Positions 5,843 to 16,331 of a stretch of 64,000 bases of DNA are shown here, piece by piece. Position 1 is the stretch's first letter, and each line of letters opens with the position of its first letter. A program made the translations under genes and the position numbers. A model generated the notes under the pieces. The model saw nothing but the letters and a program-made list of their open reading frames with translations. It did no database searches and was not told where the DNA came from. Origin of the DNA: an uncultured Desulfobacterales bacterium (GTDB taxonomy: Bacteria; Desulfobacterota; Desulfobacteria; Desulfobacterales; JAHEIW01); assembly GCA_947259495.1 (NCBI GenBank), contig CAMYLV010000013.1, forward strand, positions 268,078-332,077, given 5' to 3'.

Positions 5843-8353
5843 ATGGAAAAAGCTGATATACCGGTCGTCAAACGATCGCTTTTTTCCTGGGTCTTTGCCG
5901 GCAATGTCAAACTGCAGATTCTGCTTTTGCTGATCATTGTCGTAATGGTTGCAGCCAGGGTGCTGCCACTGGAAATGCAAAAACGCATTGTCAATGAGGC
6001 GATTAATCTCAGAAATGTAGATTTGTTGTTTCTTTACAGCGGTATTTATCTGGGCGCGGTCGTTTTTTTCAGCGTGCTCAAATATTTAATCAGCATTATT
6101 CAAACCCTGATAACGCAGCGAACCACCGCCAGAATGAGAAAATCATTGTACCGTCACATCTTGACGCTGCCATTGAGCTTTTTCAGAAATACGCAACCCG
6201 GAATGGTCGTCAATTCTCTCTCGGCAGAACTCACGGTTCCCGGAAATTTTGCCGGCATGGCGGTTGCTGCCCCGGTTACCAACCTCTTAACGCTGCTGGC
6301 GTTCGCCGCTTACCTGTTTTGGCTCAATCCGCTATTGGCAGCCGTCTCTCTGAGCATTTACCCTATTGTTATCTTTCTTATTCCCGTGCTTCAAAAAGGC
6401 GTCAATCGCTACAATAAAAAACGGGTGGACGCCGCCAGAAAATTTTCGGCACGCATCGCCGAGGCCATTTCAGGTATCCATGAAATCCAGGGCAATGGTG
6501 CCTATCGCATCGAAAATAGAAAATATGATGCCCTGGTCAATCGGTTGCTGAAAATCAGAATATTCTGGAGCCTGTATCGGTTTGGCGTCAAATCCGCCAA
6601 TGGTTTTTTTACCAGTCTGGGACCTTTTCTGGTATTCATTCTCGGCGGCTGGCTGACCATCAAAGGGCAATTGGAACTGGGCGCGCTGGTGGCCTTTCTT
6701 TCCGCCCAGGAAAGGCTTTTTGATCCCTGGAAGGAACTCATTGAATTTTACCAGGTTTATCAGGATGGTAAAGTGACCTACAACCGAACAATGGAATACT
6801 ACGACTTTGAGCCTGAGTACGCATTAGAGCCCAAAGACCGTAAACCATTTGAGTTAGACGGAAGTGTTCAAGTAAAAGATTTGTCTTTTGTCACCGAGAC
6901 CGGCATTCGTCTACTGGACGGCATAAATGTGTCATTACAGGCCGGAGAACATCTCGCTCTGGTGGGCTTTTCCGGTAGCGGCAAAAGCACCCTGGCGCTG
7001 TGTATCGGCCAGCTGTATAAGTATACCGGCGGCCACGTTTTAATCGGTGAGCAAGAGGTGTCCGACCTGACCAAAAAAGATATGGTCAACAATATCGGCA
7101 TTGTGGCCCAGAATCCGTTCATTTTTGACGGGACCATCGAAGAAAACCTGCTCTATTCCTGCATGGCCAGAGTCAACGGAAGCGGTCGCGACAGCGAAGG
7201 CCTGCCAACCCTGGACGACATCATTGCGGTGCTCCAGCAGACCGGCATATTTGTGGACGTATTGCGATTTGGCATGAATACCATATTGGCCCATGACGAA
7301 AACAAGGATCTGGTCAACGTTATTATTCGGGTACGCGAAAACTTTCAGCGCGATTTTGGCGAGGAGCTGGCGGATTATGTGGAATTTTTCGACGAGAATA
7401 AATATCTGCATTACTCCAGTGTGGCCGAAAATTTAATTTTCGGCACGCCCAATAAAAACGCGTTTGCGACTGCCAATTTATGTAACAATCCATATTTTCT
7501 TAACTTTTTGAAGCAGGCGGATTTGACCCGCCCGCTGCTCAGCCTGAGCGCTGAATTGGCCCGGCAAACGGTGGATATTCTGGGCAATCTCCCGCCGGAG
7601 TCTGTATTCTTCGAGCAAAGCCCCATCGGCCCGGATGAACTGGAAGAATTTAAATTACTGGTTGAACGTTTGAGGCGCACGAAACTGCACGAGCTGTCCG
7701 CCGAACATCATGAGCAATTGTTGGATCTGGCACTACGCTTTGTGCCGGGAGTCCACAAGATGGTGGCCTTGCCGGCCATATTGGAAAATCTAATTTTAGA
7801 AGCCCGGGCCATGTTTCGCGAAAACATAGTTAAGGATGACCCTGAGGCGATTACCTTCTATCAGGTGACGGAATATATTTATTCTCAGACAATCCTGAAC
7901 AACATCTTTTTTGGCAAAACCAAGACGGCCAACCCCCAGGCCCAGGAGAAAATCAATCAAAGCATCGTCCAGCTTCTGATCGCCGAGGATCTGCTGGAGA
8001 CCATCATTGAAATCGGCATGCATTACCAGGTAGGCACCAAAGGTGATAAATTGTCCGGTGGCCAGCAGCAGAAACTGGCGATCGCCCGTATATTTTTGAA
8101 GCGCCCCAGGATTTTGATCATGGACGAAGCGACATCGGCCCTTGATAACAAGTCGCAAACACGCATTCAGAACCTGCTGGAAACCCGCTGGAAGAAAAAA
8201 AATACGGTTATATCCGTTGTGCACCGTCTGGATACCATCAAAAACTATGATCAAGTGGCCGTTATGAAAGCCGGTAAAATTCTTGAAATCGGGACTTATG
8301 ACGAACTGATAGCCCGGAAAGGAATGTTATATGAACTCGTCGGAAAAAAATGA
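5843..8353 (+). CDS. ABC exporter (membrane domain plus ATPase) with a large insertion in the ATPase domain
   Basis: An 836-residue half-transporter. Residues about 20-310 form a six-helix ABC exporter membrane domain. The ATPase starts near 345 with Walker A GFSGSGKST at 375 and a Q-loop region AQNPFIFDGTIEENLLYS at 423. The signature LSGGQQQ follows only at 737, then Walker B ILIMDE (757) and a VVHRLDT H-loop. Walker A to signature is normally about 110 residues; here it is 362. The extra 250 residues hold two further segments like the Q-loop tail: YSSVAENLIFG (about 525) and YSQTILNNIFFGKT (about 679). The reading frame is intact with normal codon use. Its stop overlaps the next gene, a cyclic-nucleotide-binding protein. 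Substrate unknown. Confidence 0.93.
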   Translation: MEKADIPVVKRSLFSWVFAGNVKLQILLLLIIVVMVAARVLPLEMQKRIVNEAINLRNVDLLFLYSGIYLGAVVFFSVLKYLISIIQTLITQRTTARMRKSLYRHILTLPLSFFRNTQPGMVVNSLSAELTVPGNFAGMAVAAPVTNLLTLLAFAAYLFWLNPLLAAVSLSIYPIVIFLIPVLQKGVNRYNKKRVDAARKFSARIAEAISGIHEIQGNGAYRIENRKYDALVNRLLKIRIFWSLYRFGVKSANGFFTSLGPFLVFILGGWLTIKGQLELGALVAFLSAQERLFDPWKELIEFYQVYQDGKVTYNRTMEYYDFEPEYALEPKDRKPFELDGSVQVKDLSFVTETGIRLLDGINVSLQAGEHLALVGFSGSGKSTLALCIGQLYKYTGGHVLIGEQEVSDLTKKDMVNNIGIVAQNPFIFDGTIEENLLYSCMARVNGSGRDSEGLPTLDDIIAVLQQTGIFVDVLRFGMNTILAHDENKDLVNVIIRVRENFQRDFGEELADYVEFFDENKYLHYSSVAENLIFGTPNKNAFATANLCNNPYFLNFLKQADLTRPLLSLSAELARQTVDILGNLPPESVFFEQSPIGPDELEEFKLLVERLRRTKLHELSAEHHEQLLDLALRFVPGVHKMVALPAILENLILEARAMFRENIVKDDPEAITFYQVTEYIYSQTILNNIFFGKTKTANPQAQEKINQSIVQLLIAEDLLETIIEIGMHYQVGTKGDKLSGGQQQKLAIARIFLKRPRILIMDEATSALDNKSQTRIQNLLETRWKKKNTVISVVHRLDTIKNYDQVAVMKAGKILEIGTYDELIARKGMLYELVGKK

Positions 8354-8855
8354 AAACAATCCCTCCAGCGAGTTGGAAGAGAACCTGGAGATCTTGAGAC
8401 AGACTTACTTTTTCTCGGGACTGCCGCTTGAGGCACTGAAGGTTTTTGCTTACCTTTGCACCAGAGAAAAATTTAAAAAAGACGAGTATCTCTTCAGACA
8501 ACACGAAGATGACGGGCGGGCATTTTATATCATCACCGGCAGCGCCAGCCTGGAACGCGAAGATAACGGCGGTGCCAGGGAAATCAGAGACTGCAACGTC
8601 GGAGAGTTTCTCGGTGGGCTGACCCTGCTGGGGGAGGTGCGCCGTCTTTTTTCCCTGAGAGCCACCGAAGACACCATCTGTCTGGTGCTTGAACGGGAAA
8701 AATTTACCAAAGCCCTCAAACAATTTCCGGACATCATGCCCCGTATCTTCAAGGCTGTAGCCAAAAATATCGATTCCTGGGAGGAGCGTTTTTTAGCTGA
8801 CCGCGCCGACATGTGCGGAGAATGCATGGAAAACCTGGGGGTTAGCCTTATTTGA
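8331..8855 (+). CDS. Cyclic nucleotide-binding domain protein
   Basis: A 174-residue CRP-like sensor domain without a DNA-binding helix-turn-helix. Residues about 25-150 form the jelly-roll: FSGLPLEALKVFAYLCT, FKKDEYLFRQHEDDGRAFYI, then VGEFLGGLTLLGE, corresponding to the phosphate-binding cassette. The C-terminus has a Cys pair, DMCGECMENLG. It starts 23 bases inside the ABC exporter gene, so the two are translationally coupled and probably work together, perhaps as a regulatory subunit. The ligand cannot be told from sequence. Confidence 0.88.
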   Translation: MNSSEKNENNPSSELEENLEILRQTYFFSGLPLEALKVFAYLCTREKFKKDEYLFRQHEDDGRAFYIITGSASLEREDNGGAREIRDCNVGEFLGGLTLLGEVRRLFSLRATEDTICLVLEREKFTKALKQFPDIMPRIFKAVAKNIDSWEERFLADRADMCGECMENLGVSLI

Positions 8856-8949: not shown

Positions 8950-9402
8950 ATGGCCAAAAATAAAATCACCTTTAAACTTAAAAACAAGCTGTCTGAGCTG
9001 GATACCCTGTGCCAAAATTTAGAACGCTTTGGGGAATCCATCGGACTGTCTCCTAAATTTATTTTCGAAACCAACCTGGCCTTGGACGAGCTGTTTACCA
9101 ATATTATTTCCTACGGATATAGCGACAAAAAAGTACACATCATTACAGTTGAGATCTCGCTTCAGAATAACGAGCTGCTCTTTAGTATTGAAGATGACGG
9201 CCTGCCGTTCAACCCCACTGAGGTCGAAGAACCGGATCTGGGATGCTCCATTGAAGAATGTAAAATTGGCGGATTGGGGATCCATCTGGCCAAAAATCTG
9301 ATGGATGAAGTTTGTTACCAGCGCTGTAAAGAAAAAAATATTTTAACACTTAAAAAAAAAATTCAAGAATCTCAACCCGCAAAAAAACGGATGAAGGGCT
9401 GA
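8950..9402 (+). CDS. RsbW-like anti-sigma serine kinase (HATPase)
   Basis: A 150-residue GHKL ATPase domain of the anti-sigma-factor kinase type. The N-box is ETNLALDELFTNIISYGY, the G1-like motif is IEDDGLPFNP, and GGLGIHLAKNLMDEV matches the G2 segment. Such kinases phosphorylate STAS proteins or hold sigma factors, or end Rsb-type phosphatase cascades. A STAS protein is encoded 153 bases downstream on the same strand, making a partner-switch pair. GAGGT precedes the start. The target is not visible here: no sigma factor or PP2C phosphatase lies nearby. Confidence 0.88.
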   Translation: MAKNKITFKLKNKLSELDTLCQNLERFGESIGLSPKFIFETNLALDELFTNIISYGYSDKKVHIITVEISLQNNELLFSIEDDGLPFNPTEVEEPDLGCSIEECKIGGLGIHLAKNLMDEVCYQRCKEKNILTLKKKIQESQPAKKRMKG

Positions 9403-9555: not shown

Positions 9556-9888
9556 ATGGAAATTTTAGAAGAAAACCACGGCGGGATTAACATATTTAAG
9601 CTCAACGGACGCCTTGATTCCAATACATCCCAAGGGTTTGAGAAGAAGATATTTCAGGCCATCGATGACGGTTCAAAAAATATGATCATTGATTTCAAAG
9701 ATCTTGATTACATTTCAAGTGCCGGCTTACGCGTTATTCTCAAAGCCACCAAAGCGCTTAAGCGCGAAGAAGGCAAGATGCTGCTATGTGATATGCAGGA
9801 TTACGTGAAGGAGGTTTTTGAAATCGCCGGATTTGATTCTTTTCTGCCAATCGTCGGCACCATGGATGATGCCCTGCAAGGCTTTTAA
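9556..9888 (+). CDS. STAS domain anti-anti-sigma factor
   Basis: A 110-residue STAS domain, the usual length. The core IIDFKDLDYISSAGLRVIL carries the conserved Ser-Ser-Ala-Gly phosphoacceptor motif at about residues 56-59. TATGGAGGACAG gives a good ribosome site. It presumably is the substrate or binding partner of the RsbW-like kinase encoded just upstream. A family B repeat between the two may affect their joint transcription. It converges on the PqqD-like gene. Confidence 0.93.
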   Translation: MEILEENHGGINIFKLNGRLDSNTSQGFEKKIFQAIDDGSKNMIIDFKDLDYISSAGLRVILKATKALKREEGKMLLCDMQDYVKEVFEIAGFDSFLPIVGTMDDALQGF

Positions 9889-9922: not shown

Positions 9923-10306
9923 TTAGCGTATACCGATCAGACCGCGCCTGCCAAGCTCCCTTAAGAATTGGGTGACCGCAACCTCCGCCTCCCGGGGCTC
10001 CAGTTGATGAGTTGTGGCAAAACTGTTGATCAGTTGCCGCACCGAGCATTTTCCGTCAATCAGCGCCCAGACCGAAGTCCCCAGGGCATCCAGCTGAAGT
10101 TTTTTGGTCTGTATTTGAACCTCGGGACCGCCAAAACGCTTAACCAGACCTGCAAATAATGGCCGCATCGTTACGGGATAATGAATAACGACCTCACCGC
10201 TATCCAAGCGCTCTTCGCTAATCTGAACGTTTTTATCCGGAATTCGATCGAGTGCTTCTGCCCGGCTGATTGACGGGCCCTTCGACTTTTTTCTAAACAA
10301 TCTCAT
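9923..10306 (-). CDS. PqqD family protein
   Basis: A 127-residue protein whose C-terminal half (about 65-125) matches the PqqD winged-helix peptide-binding fold: LDALGTSVWALIDGKCSVRQLINSFA, then EAEVAVTQFLRELGRRGLIGI. In RiPP systems PqqD hands a precursor peptide to a radical SAM enzyme. Here it overlaps by 14 bases a 293-residue unknown protein, so the two are coupled. No precursor or radical SAM maturase is adjacent, so the usual peptide-chaperone role is uncertain. Confidence 0.8.
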   Translation of the reverse strand: MRLFRKKSKGPSISRAEALDRIPDKNVQISEERLDSGEVVIHYPVTMRPLFAGLVKRFGGPEVQIQTKKLQLDALGTSVWALIDGKCSVRQLINSFATTHQLEPREAEVAVTQFLRELGRRGLIGIR

Positions 10307-11174
10307 AATGCGTACAGATGTGGTCCAGCACTGCTGTGTCGAGGGGCTTTTTTCCTTCGGCTTTGACCCCCAGAATACGATTTTGGGCTTCCAGATGCCA
10401 GAGCCCCAACCAGCAGTAGGAGGCCTTGTGTTTGAAACGGCTCAACTGCCGCTGCCAGTCGGCAACCGGTGACGTGCTCCACTCAACCATGTCGTGTCCA
10501 TCAATGGTCCCGGCAATCGGTTCGGCCTTACCGAAGCTGGCGACCGTTTTGGCGAACTGCACCAGATCCTGCTTGTCCAGCAAAACAGAAGCCATTGACC
10601 AGCGATACAAAATAACATGCTGACTGCCTTCTGCAAAATCAAGCTCATATTGACCGGCTTCAAAGCGATAGCTTTCCAACTGATACGTTTCGGGCACCAG
10701 CGCTCGGATATCGTAGGCCGCCCACAGAATTTGACCGTCCGAGCGATGGTCACGAATCGAAGCTAAAATGTCGACTGAAACGGCCTGGCTTGGATTGGAG
10801 CGTTTCTGAAAAAATTGGATCAGGGTAACATTGCGGCAGATCGGGCAGTACATAAGTGCACCCCTGCCGCGGGTTGAATGGGATTGCCAGGTAAATTCGC
10901 TGGCTTTGAAATCGGACAGGGCCGCGGCCCAATCTGAAGAAACCGGTTCGGGCTTGACCGATTTGCGGAGCTGTCTTTTTTGAAGAGCGCTTAATTGCTT
11001 GAGGTGGGTTGAATGGGAAAATTTACCTTTTACCGGCGCCCATTTAATTTCCATCACCGGACCGAGTTCATTTTCGATTGAAAGATAGCGAACCCCGATC
11101 TGGCTCAGCTGCCAGTCGGCGGGAATTTTAAACCGCATGCCGTACCAGGCGATCTCTTTCCATCGATTCAGCAA
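10293..11174 (-). CDS. Hypothetical protein, partner of the PqqD-like protein
   Basis: A 293-residue soluble protein with no clear family that I recognise. It starts at TTG with GGAGGGG just upstream (MLNRWKEIAWYGMRF); no earlier ATG is available. A single CPIC motif (about residue 110) could bind metal or be redox-active. The fold looks mixed alpha/beta with repeated Trp-rich strands. It overlaps the start of the PqqD-like gene, so the two should be made together. Function unknown. Confidence 0.7.
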   Translation of the reverse strand: MLNRWKEIAWYGMRFKIPADWQLSQIGVRYLSIENELGPVMEIKWAPVKGKFSHSTHLKQLSALQKRQLRKSVKPEPVSSDWAAALSDFKASEFTWQSHSTRGRGALMYCPICRNVTLIQFFQKRSNPSQAVSVDILASIRDHRSDGQILWAAYDIRALVPETYQLESYRFEAGQYELDFAEGSQHVILYRWSMASVLLDKQDLVQFAKTVASFGKAEPIAGTIDGHDMVEWSTSPVADWQRQLSRFKHKASYCWLGLWHLEAQNRILGVKAEGKKPLDTAVLDHICTHYEIV

Positions 11175-11290
11175 AGCCCCTCCGCTTTAACGGATATGGT
11201 CAACCCACTAAGGGAACATCAAACGTTAATAAATTGCCTGTATTTATCTTTGCCGAATATTTCAGAAAATTCAACAATATCATTAATCCG

Positions 11291-11911
11291 CTAGCGCGGC
11301 AGAAAAAGCTCCCAGCCACTATCTTGAGGCTTGACGGCTTTCCACTCTCGCTGTCGGAGTCTTTCCCGAAAGTCGAGTTGCTTGTGCTTATAGCACAGAT
11401 GGTCTTCTTCAATCAGGGTTGTATTGGTGAGTTTGACCGCATTGCCCATTTTTTCTTGCTCATCCATGGCGTTGTGCTGCAGGATGAGGCTGATTTTTTG
11501 GTTCTGCTTGTTGACAAATGACCATTTCCAGGCATCCACGATTTTAAAGGGATCTCCCCGATATTCGTCGGGCTCGCCGAATCGCTTTTTAAATTTCTTG
11601 AGCAGATCTTTATAAAATCGTTTACTCGAATCCGCATATTTTAATTTGATCCTGACAATATGGCCCGGCTTTTCGCAGGTGCCATAGGCGATCAGTCCGC
11701 TCTTAAACCCCTGAGTAAACTTGATTTCAACCTCCTCAATATTTTCCGCATAGCGCACCGGCAGGGCCGTATCCATGATCACCCGATCTTCAAACGCTTT
11801 AATGTTCTGATTCAGAACAAATCCGCCAACCTGGTCGGGTGCCTCTGACAGAGCCATGGCGGGGTTCCCTAAAAGGAGCAATGTCAAGACGAGTACTGTC
11901 TTAGTTTTCAT
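11291..11911 (-). CDS. Exported hypothetical protein
   Basis: A 206-residue protein with a clear signal peptide (MKTKTVLVLTLLLLGNPAMA, probable cleavage after AMA), so periplasmic or secreted. The mature part is charged, with two Cys (KSGLIAYGTCEK and EEDHLCYKHKQ) that could form a disulfide. GAGAGG precedes the ATG. It may belong with the unknown 293-residue gene downstream, separated by 116 bases. No family was recognised. Confidence 0.75.
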   Translation of the reverse strand: MKTKTVLVLTLLLLGNPAMALSEAPDQVGGFVLNQNIKAFEDRVIMDTALPVRYAENIEEVEIKFTQGFKSGLIAYGTCEKPGHIVRIKLKYADSSKRFYKDLLKKFKKRFGEPDEYRGDPFKIVDAWKWSFVNKQNQKISLILQHNAMDEQEKMGNAVKLTNTTLIEEDHLCYKHKQLDFRERLRQREWKAVKPQDSGWELFLPR

Positions 11912-12051
11912 AACGACCTCTCAAGTTAAAATGGGTAATCTTCAAAACTAAAGCCCCCATTTGAGTTTCCGGTCACGCAAATCTTAATAGGTAAATATAA
12001 CTCCGCTTACAGTCGTTGTAAAACCGGGCCCGCAATGAGCCCGATCAGGCG

Positions 12052-14010
12052 CTAATAAGCGAGCCGTCCCAAAGATTTGAGTATCAGGGTGACGCCCATG
12101 GCAAACATTCCGGTCAGGCCCATACCGCAGGAAAATCCGGCCAGCAACACCGGCGCATACTGGCGCCACATGGCCCCGTAACGTTTCAGGAAAAAAAAAC
12201 GTCCCAGCAAAGCTCCGGCCACCTCAAGGAACATGGCATGCGGCAGAGTCTGACCCAGACCGCGCACCATACCATACACCAGCATAATCGGGAGACCAAA
12301 CAGGGTCAAAATGGTATAGGTAATCACGCCGAGCCCCATACCGGCAATCACGTAAACAACATTCAGCGCCTGATAAAAAGCGGCATTGCCTTCCAGTGTC
12401 GAGCTTTGCATCAGCAGCGTGTTCAAGGCCTGCAGATGCCAGATTTCCTGGGCAAAGGGGTAGGCGCTGGAGGGTATGGGGGCCAGCCGCCAGATAAATT
12501 GTGAAAACAACAGGCTGGCAGTCATAACAATCGGAAATACCACGATTTCCGACTTGATAATCCCACGAATGCTTGTTCCGGTCAGCTCGATTTGCCGAAA
12601 ATTAACGGTGGCTTCCCCATAATTGTGAATGGGAATCGGCGCATACCAGATCTCAATACCCTGATAGCCGAAATATTTGGCACCAGCAATAAAGCTAATC
12701 TCGCGAACCAGCGGCAAACTCACGAACTGCCCGGCAATACCTTCCATTCGGGCGGTAATGTAGGAAACGATCGGGGTGTAGATAAAGCCGTAAGCGAGAA
12801 AAAAAGGCCAGGGAAAATTGGGAACCAGCCAAAGGCAAAGCAAAACGTAAGAAATTGTGGAGAAAACATATATGCCGATGGAAATCCAGAAATTAAAGTC
12901 CCCCCGGCCGGGTGGCGGGCGAAACAAATCCCGCATGCTGCCTCTTGTACCCCCTTGCTTACCAAAGGAGCGCACCACATGCCAGATCCCCACAAACGCA
13001 ATCGCCAGGCCCAAACCGATGCTGAAGCTCATGTAAAAATCGAAATTATTAGCAAACATCGTATCAACGGTTTCCATGCCCGGATGCCAGCGGGTCAGGA
13101 TACCGTTATTATATAAAATCGGATTGGCAACCACCGTGATGAGAATTCCCACCAATCCGCCCATGACCGCCCAGAACGGCAGCACCATACCGATAAAAAC
13201 AAGGCCCAGGTCCAGTTGAATCCCGGTGGCGACCGCCGGCAGCACCCCTTCGGTATGGCCGGTCAGCTCGACCCAGGGAATCGGAATCAGACGGATCGGT
13301 TCCATCAGAAACAGGCCCGATACGGTGGGCAGCAACACGTAAATCGCCCCGAAAACCAGCCCTATGACGCCGCCGATGGAAAAGACCCGCCATTTCCAGC
13401 TTTTTTTCTTGTCCTCGGTAGATTCAGCCAGGGCCATGGTTCCCAGGGCCGCCACCGGTGCCATGGGAAAAGGCAGCTTTTCAACATCGGAGGTAATCCG
13501 GAAAAGCGCATATCCCAACCCGAACTGATCGATGCGCTGAATGATCTGGGTGCCGACCAGCAGCAGAATCGGAATCAGCCAATCGCGGTGGAAAAACGTG
13601 CGTTCCACCAGTGAGGCGGATTCCGGGGCCGGCGCCACCCAGGTGGGGATAAACTCGGTGACACCCAGCATCCGCGCCGCATCGGACTGCACCAGGTATT
13701 GACTCCACAACAGGCCCTGAAACGGCGTGGACAATGCCGCTCCGGCCATATAATACAGCAGAAATATTTCCTGTTGTTTTAATTCGCTGTAAGACCGTTT
13801 GGCCAGTTCGGCAAAAAGTATGATGGTTACCCAGCGGGCGGCGGGTCCGATACCGGTTCCAATGACCAGCTGCAGATACATGCTGCCGGGCATCATCAGA
13901 AAGCCGATAAAAATCGCCCCGACCACAGTCTTCCAGTCAAAACCTTCCTCAAACTCAGTCGGGGTTTCCAGCAGGTCCCGATACTCTTGCAGTTCTTTAT
14001 CTTCGTACAT
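12052..14010 (-). CDS. Large multi-pass membrane protein, OPT/peptide-transporter-like
   Basis: A 652-residue integral membrane protein with about 14 hydrophobic segments from residue 25 to the end. Segments such as GAIFIGFLMMPGSMYLQLVIG, IGPAARWVTIILFAELAKRS and PFPMAPVAALGTMALAEST resemble oligopeptide-transporter (OPT)-like proteins. No ATPase is linked. The second membrane protein gene, upstream on the same strand, is likely its partner. The spacer between them holds an inverted repeat. The substrate is not evident. Confidence 0.75.
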   Translation of the reverse strand: MYEDKELQEYRDLLETPTEFEEGFDWKTVVGAIFIGFLMMPGSMYLQLVIGTGIGPAARWVTIILFAELAKRSYSELKQQEIFLLYYMAGAALSTPFQGLLWSQYLVQSDAARMLGVTEFIPTWVAPAPESASLVERTFFHRDWLIPILLLVGTQIIQRIDQFGLGYALFRITSDVEKLPFPMAPVAALGTMALAESTEDKKKSWKWRVFSIGGVIGLVFGAIYVLLPTVSGLFLMEPIRLIPIPWVELTGHTEGVLPAVATGIQLDLGLVFIGMVLPFWAVMGGLVGILITVVANPILYNNGILTRWHPGMETVDTMFANNFDFYMSFSIGLGLAIAFVGIWHVVRSFGKQGGTRGSMRDLFRPPPGRGDFNFWISIGIYVFSTISYVLLCLWLVPNFPWPFFLAYGFIYTPIVSYITARMEGIAGQFVSLPLVREISFIAGAKYFGYQGIEIWYAPIPIHNYGEATVNFRQIELTGTSIRGIIKSEIVVFPIVMTASLLFSQFIWRLAPIPSSAYPFAQEIWHLQALNTLLMQSSTLEGNAAFYQALNVVYVIAGMGLGVITYTILTLFGLPIMLVYGMVRGLGQTLPHAMFLEVAGALLGRFFFLKRYGAMWRQYAPVLLAGFSCGMGLTGMFAMGVTLILKSLGRLAY

Positions 14011-14090
14011 GGGTTAATCCAATCACCTTAAGGGAAACATATCACCGAGTTCAATTTTCCGCTAGTGGATTAAAAATCAACAGGCAAAGC

Positions 14091-14228
14091 GCATGGCGCA
14101 TAGAGAAAAAAGTTTTGCTAAAGAACAACATCCCCATTTATTCTAATGGGGTTCAAATCATCGGCCGCATTTGTGCTGACGCCATCCTGCTCCTTACACC
14201 ATGCGCCATGCCCTATGCCCTATGCCAT
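14091..14228. repeat. atggcgcatag-type inverted repeat, family F (empty)
   Basis: gcatggcgcatag (14091-14103) is mirrored by ccatgcgccatgccctatgc and ccctatgccat (14199-14228). The same 'ccatgc(c/t)c(c/t)atgc' unit makes a one-arm array at 35822-35870. The right arm runs to the stop of the second membrane-protein gene. Confidence 0.75.
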
Positions 14229-16267
14229 TAGTCAGGCAACACCAGATAGCTGGAATAGCTGAAGAGTCCGATAATGGCCCAGGTGCCGGCCATAAATAAA
14301 TCACCGATAATCAGTCCGATAAAAAAGTTACGCAATTTTTTAAACAGTTTAACCCCCCCATACCGCATACACAGGGCATTGCAGGCCCAACCAATAAAGA
14401 AACTGAACCACAGTATGCGCATGGCGGAGCTATAAGCCGTCAGGTAGCCAATGGGATGGATCGGCCACCAGTAAAAACGATGATAACAGATGACCAAAAT
14501 CAGCATGACCACCGCGCCGGTAATCGAAAAAATCAGCACCCAGTCACCCGGCTTTGCCGGTGATTCGACCAGGCTGTAAACATTATCATAAAGTGCCACG
14601 GTGGTGCGCGTGGCCCAGTCCAGCTGCAGCTCTCGCATACCAAATTTGTAACACAGCGCCAGCATGGCCAGAAAAGAGATCAGCACCCCGGCAACCAGCG
14701 TCATGGCAATGGCCAAAAATATCAATCGATTGTTGCGCGTCTTGTCCGTTAGTTTGCGGGCATGCAGTAATGAGGGCATGAGCGATTCCCGCAAATCGAC
14801 AAACAATACTTTCTGAATGACGGCGGCAACCAGGATTCCGACGCTGGTGAAAAATTTTGGCCCGAAAAAGGCCATCAGCCCGTCCATGGGCGCGGCGGTT
14901 AGGGTAAAATACGCGATCCCGCCCTGACAGATGACCCGCATGGCAACCAGGGTAAACATAAAAAAGGCAAAAACAACCAGTATTGAAAATAAGAACGGAA
15001 GGCCGAAATAATGACACCAGATGACAATCGCCAGGCTTCCCAGAACAAATCCCCAGAAGGCAAAGCGCGTTGACAGCCATTCGGATGCCAGATCGTCTTC
15101 TTTTTTAAAGCCGATACCATAACGGACAATATTGATAAAATGAAATCGCGCCAACCAGGCCAGAAAGAGAAAAAAGACGATGTAAGCGCCGATCATCTGA
15201 GTCTCTTCAGGGCGCGAAATGGTGGGACCGAAGGTGACACCCAGAGCCGCTGCCGGGATATTTAAGCCCAGTACACTGAGTAATCCAAACAGCAGGGTCC
15301 CTATAATGAAAAAAAACCAGAATGAAAAAGAAATCTGTTTGGAGGTTAAAAACGCAAAACCGATAAAGGCCGGATAAATATATATTTTTAACTTGAAAAA
15401 CCCGGAAAGAAGGCCAAACTTCGGAAAATATTTACCGGCCAGAATCAGAGTCGGAAACTGAGGGATGGACGGATTGTAAAAGGCCAGCCCATTGAGCAGA
15501 TGTAGGCAGACCGGCACCATCAGGCCGGCAATCAGAAAACGATTGGTAAAAAACTGCCCCAGGCCGTTGCGGTCAAGGGCCTCCTGCATGGCAAACGGCA
15601 CCCGCAACAGTGGAAAATTCATGCGTTCATTGTATAGCGGTTGTTTGCTTAAAAGATTAACAATGCAGACCATGACAAAATAGCACAGCAGGACAAATAT
15701 CGTCCAGGTCAGCAGGGGCGTTAGCCACACCCCCCAGGGAATCTGTTTAAGAACTTCAAACCACCCCAGTTGCCGGCCACTGGCAAGACCGTTGTAAATG
15801 CCGGTAATGGCATCCTGGCCCTGGGGATACCAGCTTTCGGGCAAAAGCGGGTGCAACACTTCCGACCAGCGATTTTCAACAGTGGCAAAATGAAAGGGTG
15901 CGGTGAGGTTAACAAAAAAGGTGCGCGCCAATCCGGTCCAGGCAACTCCGGACAATAGCAACATCAGGGCCCAGGACACCAATAGCTCTTTGCCGGTAAT
16001 GAATTTTTGGCCTTTAAACACGAAGCGCATAACGGCGGTCAGGACCATCAACCACACTAGAATATAAAATGGCGCCAATGGGAAATGCCCGCCGCCCAGA
16101 GGCGTTGCCTGGCGGAATGCATTGTTAAAGGGGGTGATCAGACAAATTGCCAGCGCAAAAAACGACCCCAGCACAATGGCCCGCAAACGGATTTTTTCTC
16201 CGAATTTTTCCTCCTTAATGGTTGTCAGCTGTTCTTCACTGGAAGCGGGTTGCTGATTTTCGGTCAT
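14228..16267 (-). CDS. Multi-pass membrane protein, DUF6785-like
   Basis: A 679-residue integral membrane protein with about 13 predicted helices. After a charged 30-residue cytoplasmic N-terminus, segments GSFFALAICLITPFNNAF, PFYILVWLMVLTAVM and YIVFFLFLAWLARFHFINI follow. I recognise it as resembling proteins annotated DUF6785, found beside OPT-like proteins, as here. ATG 16267 with AGGATC upstream is preferred over a TTG at 16300. The two membrane proteins probably form one transport unit; no substrate can be assigned. Confidence 0.75.
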   Translation of the reverse strand: MTENQQPASSEEQLTTIKEEKFGEKIRLRAIVLGSFFALAICLITPFNNAFRQATPLGGGHFPLAPFYILVWLMVLTAVMRFVFKGQKFITGKELLVSWALMLLLSGVAWTGLARTFFVNLTAPFHFATVENRWSEVLHPLLPESWYPQGQDAITGIYNGLASGRQLGWFEVLKQIPWGVWLTPLLTWTIFVLLCYFVMVCIVNLLSKQPLYNERMNFPLLRVPFAMQEALDRNGLGQFFTNRFLIAGLMVPVCLHLLNGLAFYNPSIPQFPTLILAGKYFPKFGLLSGFFKLKIYIYPAFIGFAFLTSKQISFSFWFFFIIGTLLFGLLSVLGLNIPAAALGVTFGPTISRPEETQMIGAYIVFFLFLAWLARFHFINIVRYGIGFKKEDDLASEWLSTRFAFWGFVLGSLAIVIWCHYFGLPFLFSILVVFAFFMFTLVAMRVICQGGIAYFTLTAAPMDGLMAFFGPKFFTSVGILVAAVIQKVLFVDLRESLMPSLLHARKLTDKTRNNRLIFLAIAMTLVAGVLISFLAMLALCYKFGMRELQLDWATRTTVALYDNVYSLVESPAKPGDWVLIFSITGAVVMLILVICYHRFYWWPIHPIGYLTAYSSAMRILWFSFFIGWACNALCMRYGGVKLFKKLRNFFIGLIIGDLFMAGTWAIIGLFSYSSYLVLPD

Positions 16268-16331
16268 CTTTTCTGATCCTAAGCTTTCTTGTCGAATCAA
16301 CTGCGCTCACGAATTAGCCGCTGATCACGGT

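Follow-up and report, generated by a model that had tools for sequence, protein, structure and literature searches.

Type IV ABC exporters usually carry about 104 residues between Walker A and the LSGGQ signature, a spacing that is customary and not strictly defining. In ABC ATPases, ATP binding is coupled to the membrane domain through the helical subdomain. Several other ABC ATPases, including UvrA, Rad50/SMC and EF3, have domains inserted in the helical/signature region, among them coiled coils, zinc elements and other domains. The nearest documented case that we met is HetC, a peptidase-containing exporter with a fused N-terminal cyclic-nucleotide-binding (CNB) domain that binds ppGpp in vitro and is needed in vivo (PMC10986499).

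The window considered here is the whole 64,000-nucleotide stretch of DNA analysed, from an uncultured Desulfobacterales bacterium. An uninterrupted open frame at 5843–8353, on the forward strand like all features below unless stated, encodes an 836-residue protein with an ABC_membrane transmembrane domain (TMD; residues 28–293, 5924–6721) followed by an ABC ATPase, as in a type IV ABC exporter (Pfam PF00664, E = 4.1e-32; PF00005, E = 3.2e-27). It scores 303.9 bits against TIGR02203, the MsbA lipid A exporter model, below the curated cut-off of 602, and its Pfam matches include no peptidase family such as the C39 domain of HetC/PCAT-type exporters. Walker A (GFSGSGKST, residues 375–383, 6965–6991), Walker B with the catalytic glutamate (ILIMDE, residues 757–762, 8111–8128) and the H-loop histidine (His794, 8222–8224) are kept in all 56 aligned Desulfobacterota members. 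The signature motif LSGGQ (residues 737–741, 8051–8065) is kept in 54 of the 56, and the Q-loop glutamine Gln423 is invariant in the 52 sequences aligned.

Walker A (375) and LSGGQ (737) lie 362 residues apart in this protein, compared with 103–109 residues in 40 different ordinary exporter genes of the window genome and its relatives, an excess of about 258 that departs from the usual type IV spacing. The controls comprise 30 frames from 31 loci, which represent 29 different genes, nearly all of one orthologous group (the L002 frame being part of the L003 gene), and 12 more diverse frames with spacings of 103–104 residues and a median pairwise identity of 41%, of which L163 is the same gene as L149 and was already counted. 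The intact frame and the ordinary genes confirm the first-pass annotation of this DNA, which had reported both motif positions and about 250 extra residues.

The stretch between the Q-loop and the signature appears to be built from three consecutive units, delineated by alignment, predicted model and profiles. Unit 1 (residues 418–505, 7094–7357) contains the true Q-loop, the ENL helix, a helical segment and a helix (488–505) bearing the invariant Arg498. Unit 2 (residues 511–665, 7373–7837) contains a Q-loop-like strand with Glu where Gln would stand, the motif AENLIFG, helices, about 63 surplus residues and a helix (645–665) bearing the invariant Arg655. Unit 3 (residues 668–753, 7844–8101) consists of a strand, the motif LNNIFFG, helices, the X-loop and the true LSGGQ with its helix, which carries Arg749. 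Invariant residues occupy matching places across the 52 sequences (Asn435, Asn530 and Asn687; Arg498, Arg655 and Arg749), with an Asn-to-Arg distance of 125 residues in unit 2 versus 62–63 in units 1 and 3. The segments EENLLYS (433–439), AENLIFG (528–534) and LNNIFFGK (685–692) had already been singled out as similar, and motif counts across the family and profile matches bear this out. Among 56 Desulfobacterota members chosen for full length, N[LIV]x[FYM][GSA] occurs three times in 47, twice in six and four times in three; it occurs 0–2 times in 29 ordinary exporters, and three or more times in 0.1% of shuffled members.

Comparison of profiles with hhalign gave probabilities of 96.6% for unit 2 versus unit 3, 94.0% for unit 1 versus unit 3, 90.5% for unit 1 versus unit 2 and 83% for unit 2 versus ordinary exporter NBDs, and for each of the four pairings none of 200 column shuffles matched the observed score. 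Control stretches of the same protein (585–640 and 150–310) gave no profile match. The clearest repeat runs from the preceding helix to the ENL motif (484–540 versus 640–700; probability 98.5%, E = 1.8e-15); the E-values apply to single comparisons, and column shuffling is a lenient null. The profiles thus support three diverged tandem units of the Q-loop-to-signature stretch, and the repeat seems to span the Q-loop strand, the helical subdomain and the helix with the invariant arginine. An earlier proposal of repeated duplication of the coupling region therefore stands on the profile scores, with a repeat larger than the ‘tail after the Q-loop’ that it envisaged, and the alignment with ordinary exporter ATPases that it suggested likewise links unit 2 to ordinary NBDs. 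One alignment equated the later part of unit 2 with the C-helix and Walker B of ordinary NBDs; this match is not significant on its own, so the equivalence is not claimed.

AlphaFold2 models are consistent with this anatomy. The whole protein was predicted with a pLDDT of 85.1 and a pTM of 0.74 (52 sequences), and residues 484–737 alone with values of 90.8 and 0.86. The full model matches type IV exporters with VIA-align Z-scores of 31–32 and covers 239 of 239 residues of the ComA NBD with an rmsd of 1.5 Å. Because the model contains the whole ComA NBD, the ATPase domain appears to be complete with the surplus looped out. The insertion, as modelled, does not replace the coupling region, as a whole normal NBD is present, and the approximately 260 surplus residues would so constitute a plug-in module beside it. 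An SMC/Rad50-like coiled coil was considered and rejected, since the Pfam SMC_N score of 30.3 bits is below the cut-off of 40 and the predicted insert consists of many short helices.

In the predicted 484–737 model, the order helix–strand–helix–strand–helices occurs twice. VIA-align comparison of the insertion model returned ten exporter chains among the 50 listed rows (IrtAB three times, ABCB1 twice, ABCB9, MsbA, TAP, TM287/288 and 7ekl, which we take to be ABCB6), with Z-scores of 3.0–4.0 over 65–83 aligned residues. An unrelated ATP synthase ranks first (Z = 4.2), and the program warns that Z-scores under 8 may reflect a common arrangement; these low values would serve only as support for the sequence result. 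For ABCB1 entry 6qee, the aligned interval (1116–1193) brackets the residue matched to L737, at about 1175, and the other exporter intervals presumably likewise run from the Q-loop to the signature helix, going by known motif positions. Structure prediction thus favors Q-loop-like copies through an element order given twice, with structural matches that are weak.

The repeated-subdomain exporter is real, conserved and more than a lone oddity. At E ≤ 1e-6 the insertion is found at 35 places in 28 of 395 genomes sampled from the phylum, the window's own genome included. Within the order, 20 of 58 genomes (again counting the window's own) contain a relative at E ≤ 1e-100, some of them truncated where contigs end, and among these same-order matches we saw no near relative free of the insertion. 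The comparison of homologs with and without the insertion that had been suggested yielded the former in these 20 genomes and, at this threshold, none of the latter. Pattern scanning of species genomes with a single strict peptide pattern located 66 loci, almost all of them under the labels of Desulfobacterota groups or of ‘Deltaproteobacteria’; the pattern being strict, absence outside these loci means little. One copy, 69% identical to that of the window, lies on a contig labelled Candidatus Aminicenantes (L057), for which mis-binning seems likely. We also observed a 996-residue paralogue (L030, 3310–6297, reverse strand) with about ten copies of a six-residue LGNCVD-like repeat, located in the loop after the first ENL motif from residue ~471. 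Insertion relatives were not found in viral_contigs or phage records, and a virus or phage origin was rejected on this ground.

The gene directly downstream (8331–8855) encodes a 174-residue CNB protein and shares 23 bases with the exporter gene, confirming the overlap noted by the first-pass annotation. PF00027 (cNMP_binding, E = 6.8e-14) is its sole Pfam match at E ≤ 1, and no HTH DNA-binding domain was detected in it. In 65 of the 66 Desulfobacterota loci the next gene downstream encodes a CNB protein, usually in overlap with the exporter gene, and an HMM search recovers a CNB gene in 85 of 89 insertion loci, some of them representing one gene twice. The search recovered none at four loci: L043 and L033, which hold the same gene with its 3′ end altered; L028, which is a second copy; and L032, a second copy that is broken. 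Beside ordinary exporters no CNB gene was found in 31 loci, mostly covering ~1.05 kb beyond the gene, or in 12 more diverse loci covering at least 2.5 kb downstream.

The pocket Glu and Arg of the CNB domain, whose positions we take to be as in CRP, have different fates in the two groups of CNB proteins. The window protein has Gly96 at the Glu place and Arg105 at the Arg place. The Glu is kept in one of 69 Desulfobacterota rows and in eight of nine alphaproteobacterial rows, and the Arg in 58 of 69 and nine of nine, respectively. Since almost all CNB proteins of the window's branch lack the pocket Glu, their ligand may be something other than cAMP, cGMP or another cyclic nucleotide, judging from these residues.

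Further downstream are genes for an RsbW-like anti-sigma/HATPase protein (8950–9402; PF13581) and a STAS anti-sigma-factor antagonist (9556–9888; PF01740, and TIGR00377 above cut-off), families that occur in 49 and 52 of the 66 loci, respectively; the loci lacking them include short contigs. On the opposite strand, 9923–16300 encodes a PqqD-like protein and two proteins without a Pfam match, then a 652-residue membrane-type protein, also without one, and a DUF6785/DUF6784 protein; by visual comparison of sequence starts, the last two have relatives in 22 and 12 of these 66 loci, respectively. PADLOC matched the CNB proteins to TIR-effector and Pycsar models and the exporters mostly in their ATPase regions. 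A defence system was rejected, the matches on the CNB proteins being taken to reflect the shared CNB domain.

More distant relatives are carried on alphaproteobacterial plasmids. A tblastn search of plasmids with the insertion matched 250 records, all with alphaproteobacterial names (Rhizobium 144, Sinorhizobium 80, few of each of the rest), and 248 of them contain one place covering at least 80% of the query; identities among the matches listed are 22–30%. We examined 16 proteins from ten genera, mostly chosen for diversity from 250–275 matching plasmid records and including near-copies (two from S. meliloti, two from Ruegeria, and L118 and L126). All 16 lack the Walker A pattern GxxGxGK[ST], the Glu that follows Walker B and the Q-loop Gln. 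Only the Tritonibacter and Ruegeria proteins retain the Walker B Asp, and the H-loop His is absent at its place in all 16, the two Ruegeria proteins having a His at the next position. Each of the three NL-type motifs still has a counterpart, degraded in Tritonibacter, Sulfitobacter and Ruegeria; in the first two of these genera only one of the three places keeps the strict unit motif, and inspection by eye gives the same picture for Ruegeria. The CNB gene lies just downstream in ten of the 16 cases and is fused at the C-terminus in the other six (two Azospirillum, Tritonibacter, Sulfitobacter and two Ruegeria).

Several rhizobial loci lie near genes for glycosyltransferases, a nucleotide-sugar dehydrogenase, an Opp-type importer and class III cyclases. 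Adenylate/guanylate cyclase genes close to the transporter–CNB loci, such as L156 7504–8847 and L120 8593–10296, are a possible ligand source. Compared with strain RCAM1750, S. meliloti 1021 pSymB (L157) has its exporter-like gene broken into two frames at about residue 135; there are intact copies in other strains.

In a tree of the membrane domain only, a 100/100 branch parts the insertion bearers from ordinary exporters, and the alphaproteobacterial clade (100/100) branches from within the Desulfobacterota sequences on a long stem, with a bootstrap that had not settled and a very distant outgroup. This tree supports a probable common origin of the insertion bearers. The simplest reading is that loss of the ATPase motifs came when both the repeat and the link to CNB were already in place.

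The anatomy of the repeated-subdomain exporter is well supported; its function, including CNB binding to the insertion, the ligand's identity and the transported substrate, is what we infer. Our preferred explanation, which we hold with moderate confidence, is that this is a type IV (B-family) exporter half-transporter whose tandem-repeated subdomain serves the CNB partner as a docking or regulatory module. Tandem repetition would have involved everything from the Q-loop strand, across the helical subdomain, up to the signature helix; unit 1 would retain the functional Q-loop, unit 3 the functional X-loop and LSGGQ, and unit 2 would be entirely additional. As the NBD is complete in the model, ATP binding and hydrolysis are to be expected, presumably by a homodimer, and the surplus ~260 residues would form an additional helical module next to the helical subdomain. 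This module would offer a docking and control site for the CNB protein, which would sense a small ligand and adjust the exporter. The first-pass annotation had offered repeated duplication and a regulatory domain talking to the CNB protein as alternatives; both are supported and they are not exclusive, the putative contact with the CNB protein being backed by gene adjacency and gene fusion only. A broader and more tentative proposal unites both phyla in one family, in which the tandem-triplicated helical subdomain, paired with a CNB partner, would act as a module under ligand control. Module and partner may both have outlived the ATPase in alphaproteobacteria, leaving a pseudo-ABC transporter (a gated channel, regulator or scaffold, perhaps for cell-surface glycan export) controlled by CNB without ATP hydrolysis.

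Other readings account for parts of these observations. We think it somewhat unlikely that the module, though genuine, has a structural or oligomerisation role or receives some other protein or a substrate, while the co-expressed CNB protein acts elsewhere, for example in an RsbW/STAS partner switch. The frequency of RsbW and STAS families in the 66 loci would fit such a switch, as would the missing pocket Glu in 68 of 69 Desulfobacterota CNB rows, but BLAST found no RsbW or STAS relatives in the four rhizobial loci tested (L117–L120), and in alphaproteobacteria CNB stays adjacent or fused to the transporter. That the insertion is instead an unrelated all-helical domain, whose ENL-like segments converge on a common helix-cap and strand pattern, strikes us as improbable. 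Its appeal is that residues 430–736 have no Pfam family and no PDB sequence match at E ≤ 1, that Foldseek found no significant PDB match for the insertion model (best E = 0.7), and that PDB profile matches are weak (best E = 0.41), the exporter ones arising from unit 3 and not unit 2. Convergence does not readily explain profile matches that preserve order, both between units and with ordinary NBDs, at scores no shuffle reached, the silence of both control stretches, or the ten exporter chains among the 50 listed structural rows.

The loss of Walker A, the catalytic Glu and the Q-loop Gln from all 16 alphaproteobacterial proteins, in which unit counterparts and CNB remain, raises the prospect that the protein is a regulator or scaffold rather than a pump even in the window's branch. 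Given that Walker A, Walker B and the H-loop His are intact in 56 of 56 members of that branch, we rate this prospect as poor. A frameshift pair mimicking the extra region, the outcome that the first-pass annotation had held would undo its reading, finds even less room, as does an assembly error or a pseudogene product. One of the 24 order-level places listed has a stop, that of a second family copy in G004 (L032), in whose locus a CNB gene was not found; all 35 matches listed in the phylum sample are without an internal stop, and the rhizobial proteins cross the region in one frame. A frameshift or chimera origin was rejected accordingly; on the sequences of the relatives this class of explanation is already refuted, and we assign it a negligible probability.

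On the preferred reading of a docking and regulatory module, a natural, conserved repeat of the helical subdomain provides a handle on what that subdomain does, and its pairing with a CNB partner a way to ask how a small-ligand sensor could control a pump. In the branch that has lost the ATPase motifs but retains the repeat and the partner, the function of the module itself can be tested directly. Within the literature searched (the PMC open subset), we recognised no description of the insertion or of the rhizobial proteins.

The window exporter resembles the type IV exporters MsbA, Sav1866, TM287/288 and ABCB1 in its TMD, complete NBD fold and full set of catalytic motifs, and differs from them in the ~258 additional residues between Walker A and LSGGQ and in its repeated helical-subdomain units. 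UvrA, Rad50/SMC and EF3 also have extra matter between the Q-loop and the signature, but their inserts are not subdomain repeats and they are not exporters. The partner shares the PF00027 domain with CRP-like CNB proteins; unlike these, it is genetically tied to a transporter, and no DNA-binding domain was found in it. HetC is likewise an ABC exporter linked to a CNB domain, which in that protein is N-terminal and accompanied by a C39 peptidase domain (PMC10986499). Here, by contrast, no peptidase domain was found, the CNB domain is encoded by a downstream gene or fused at the C-terminus, and the NBD carries the insertion.
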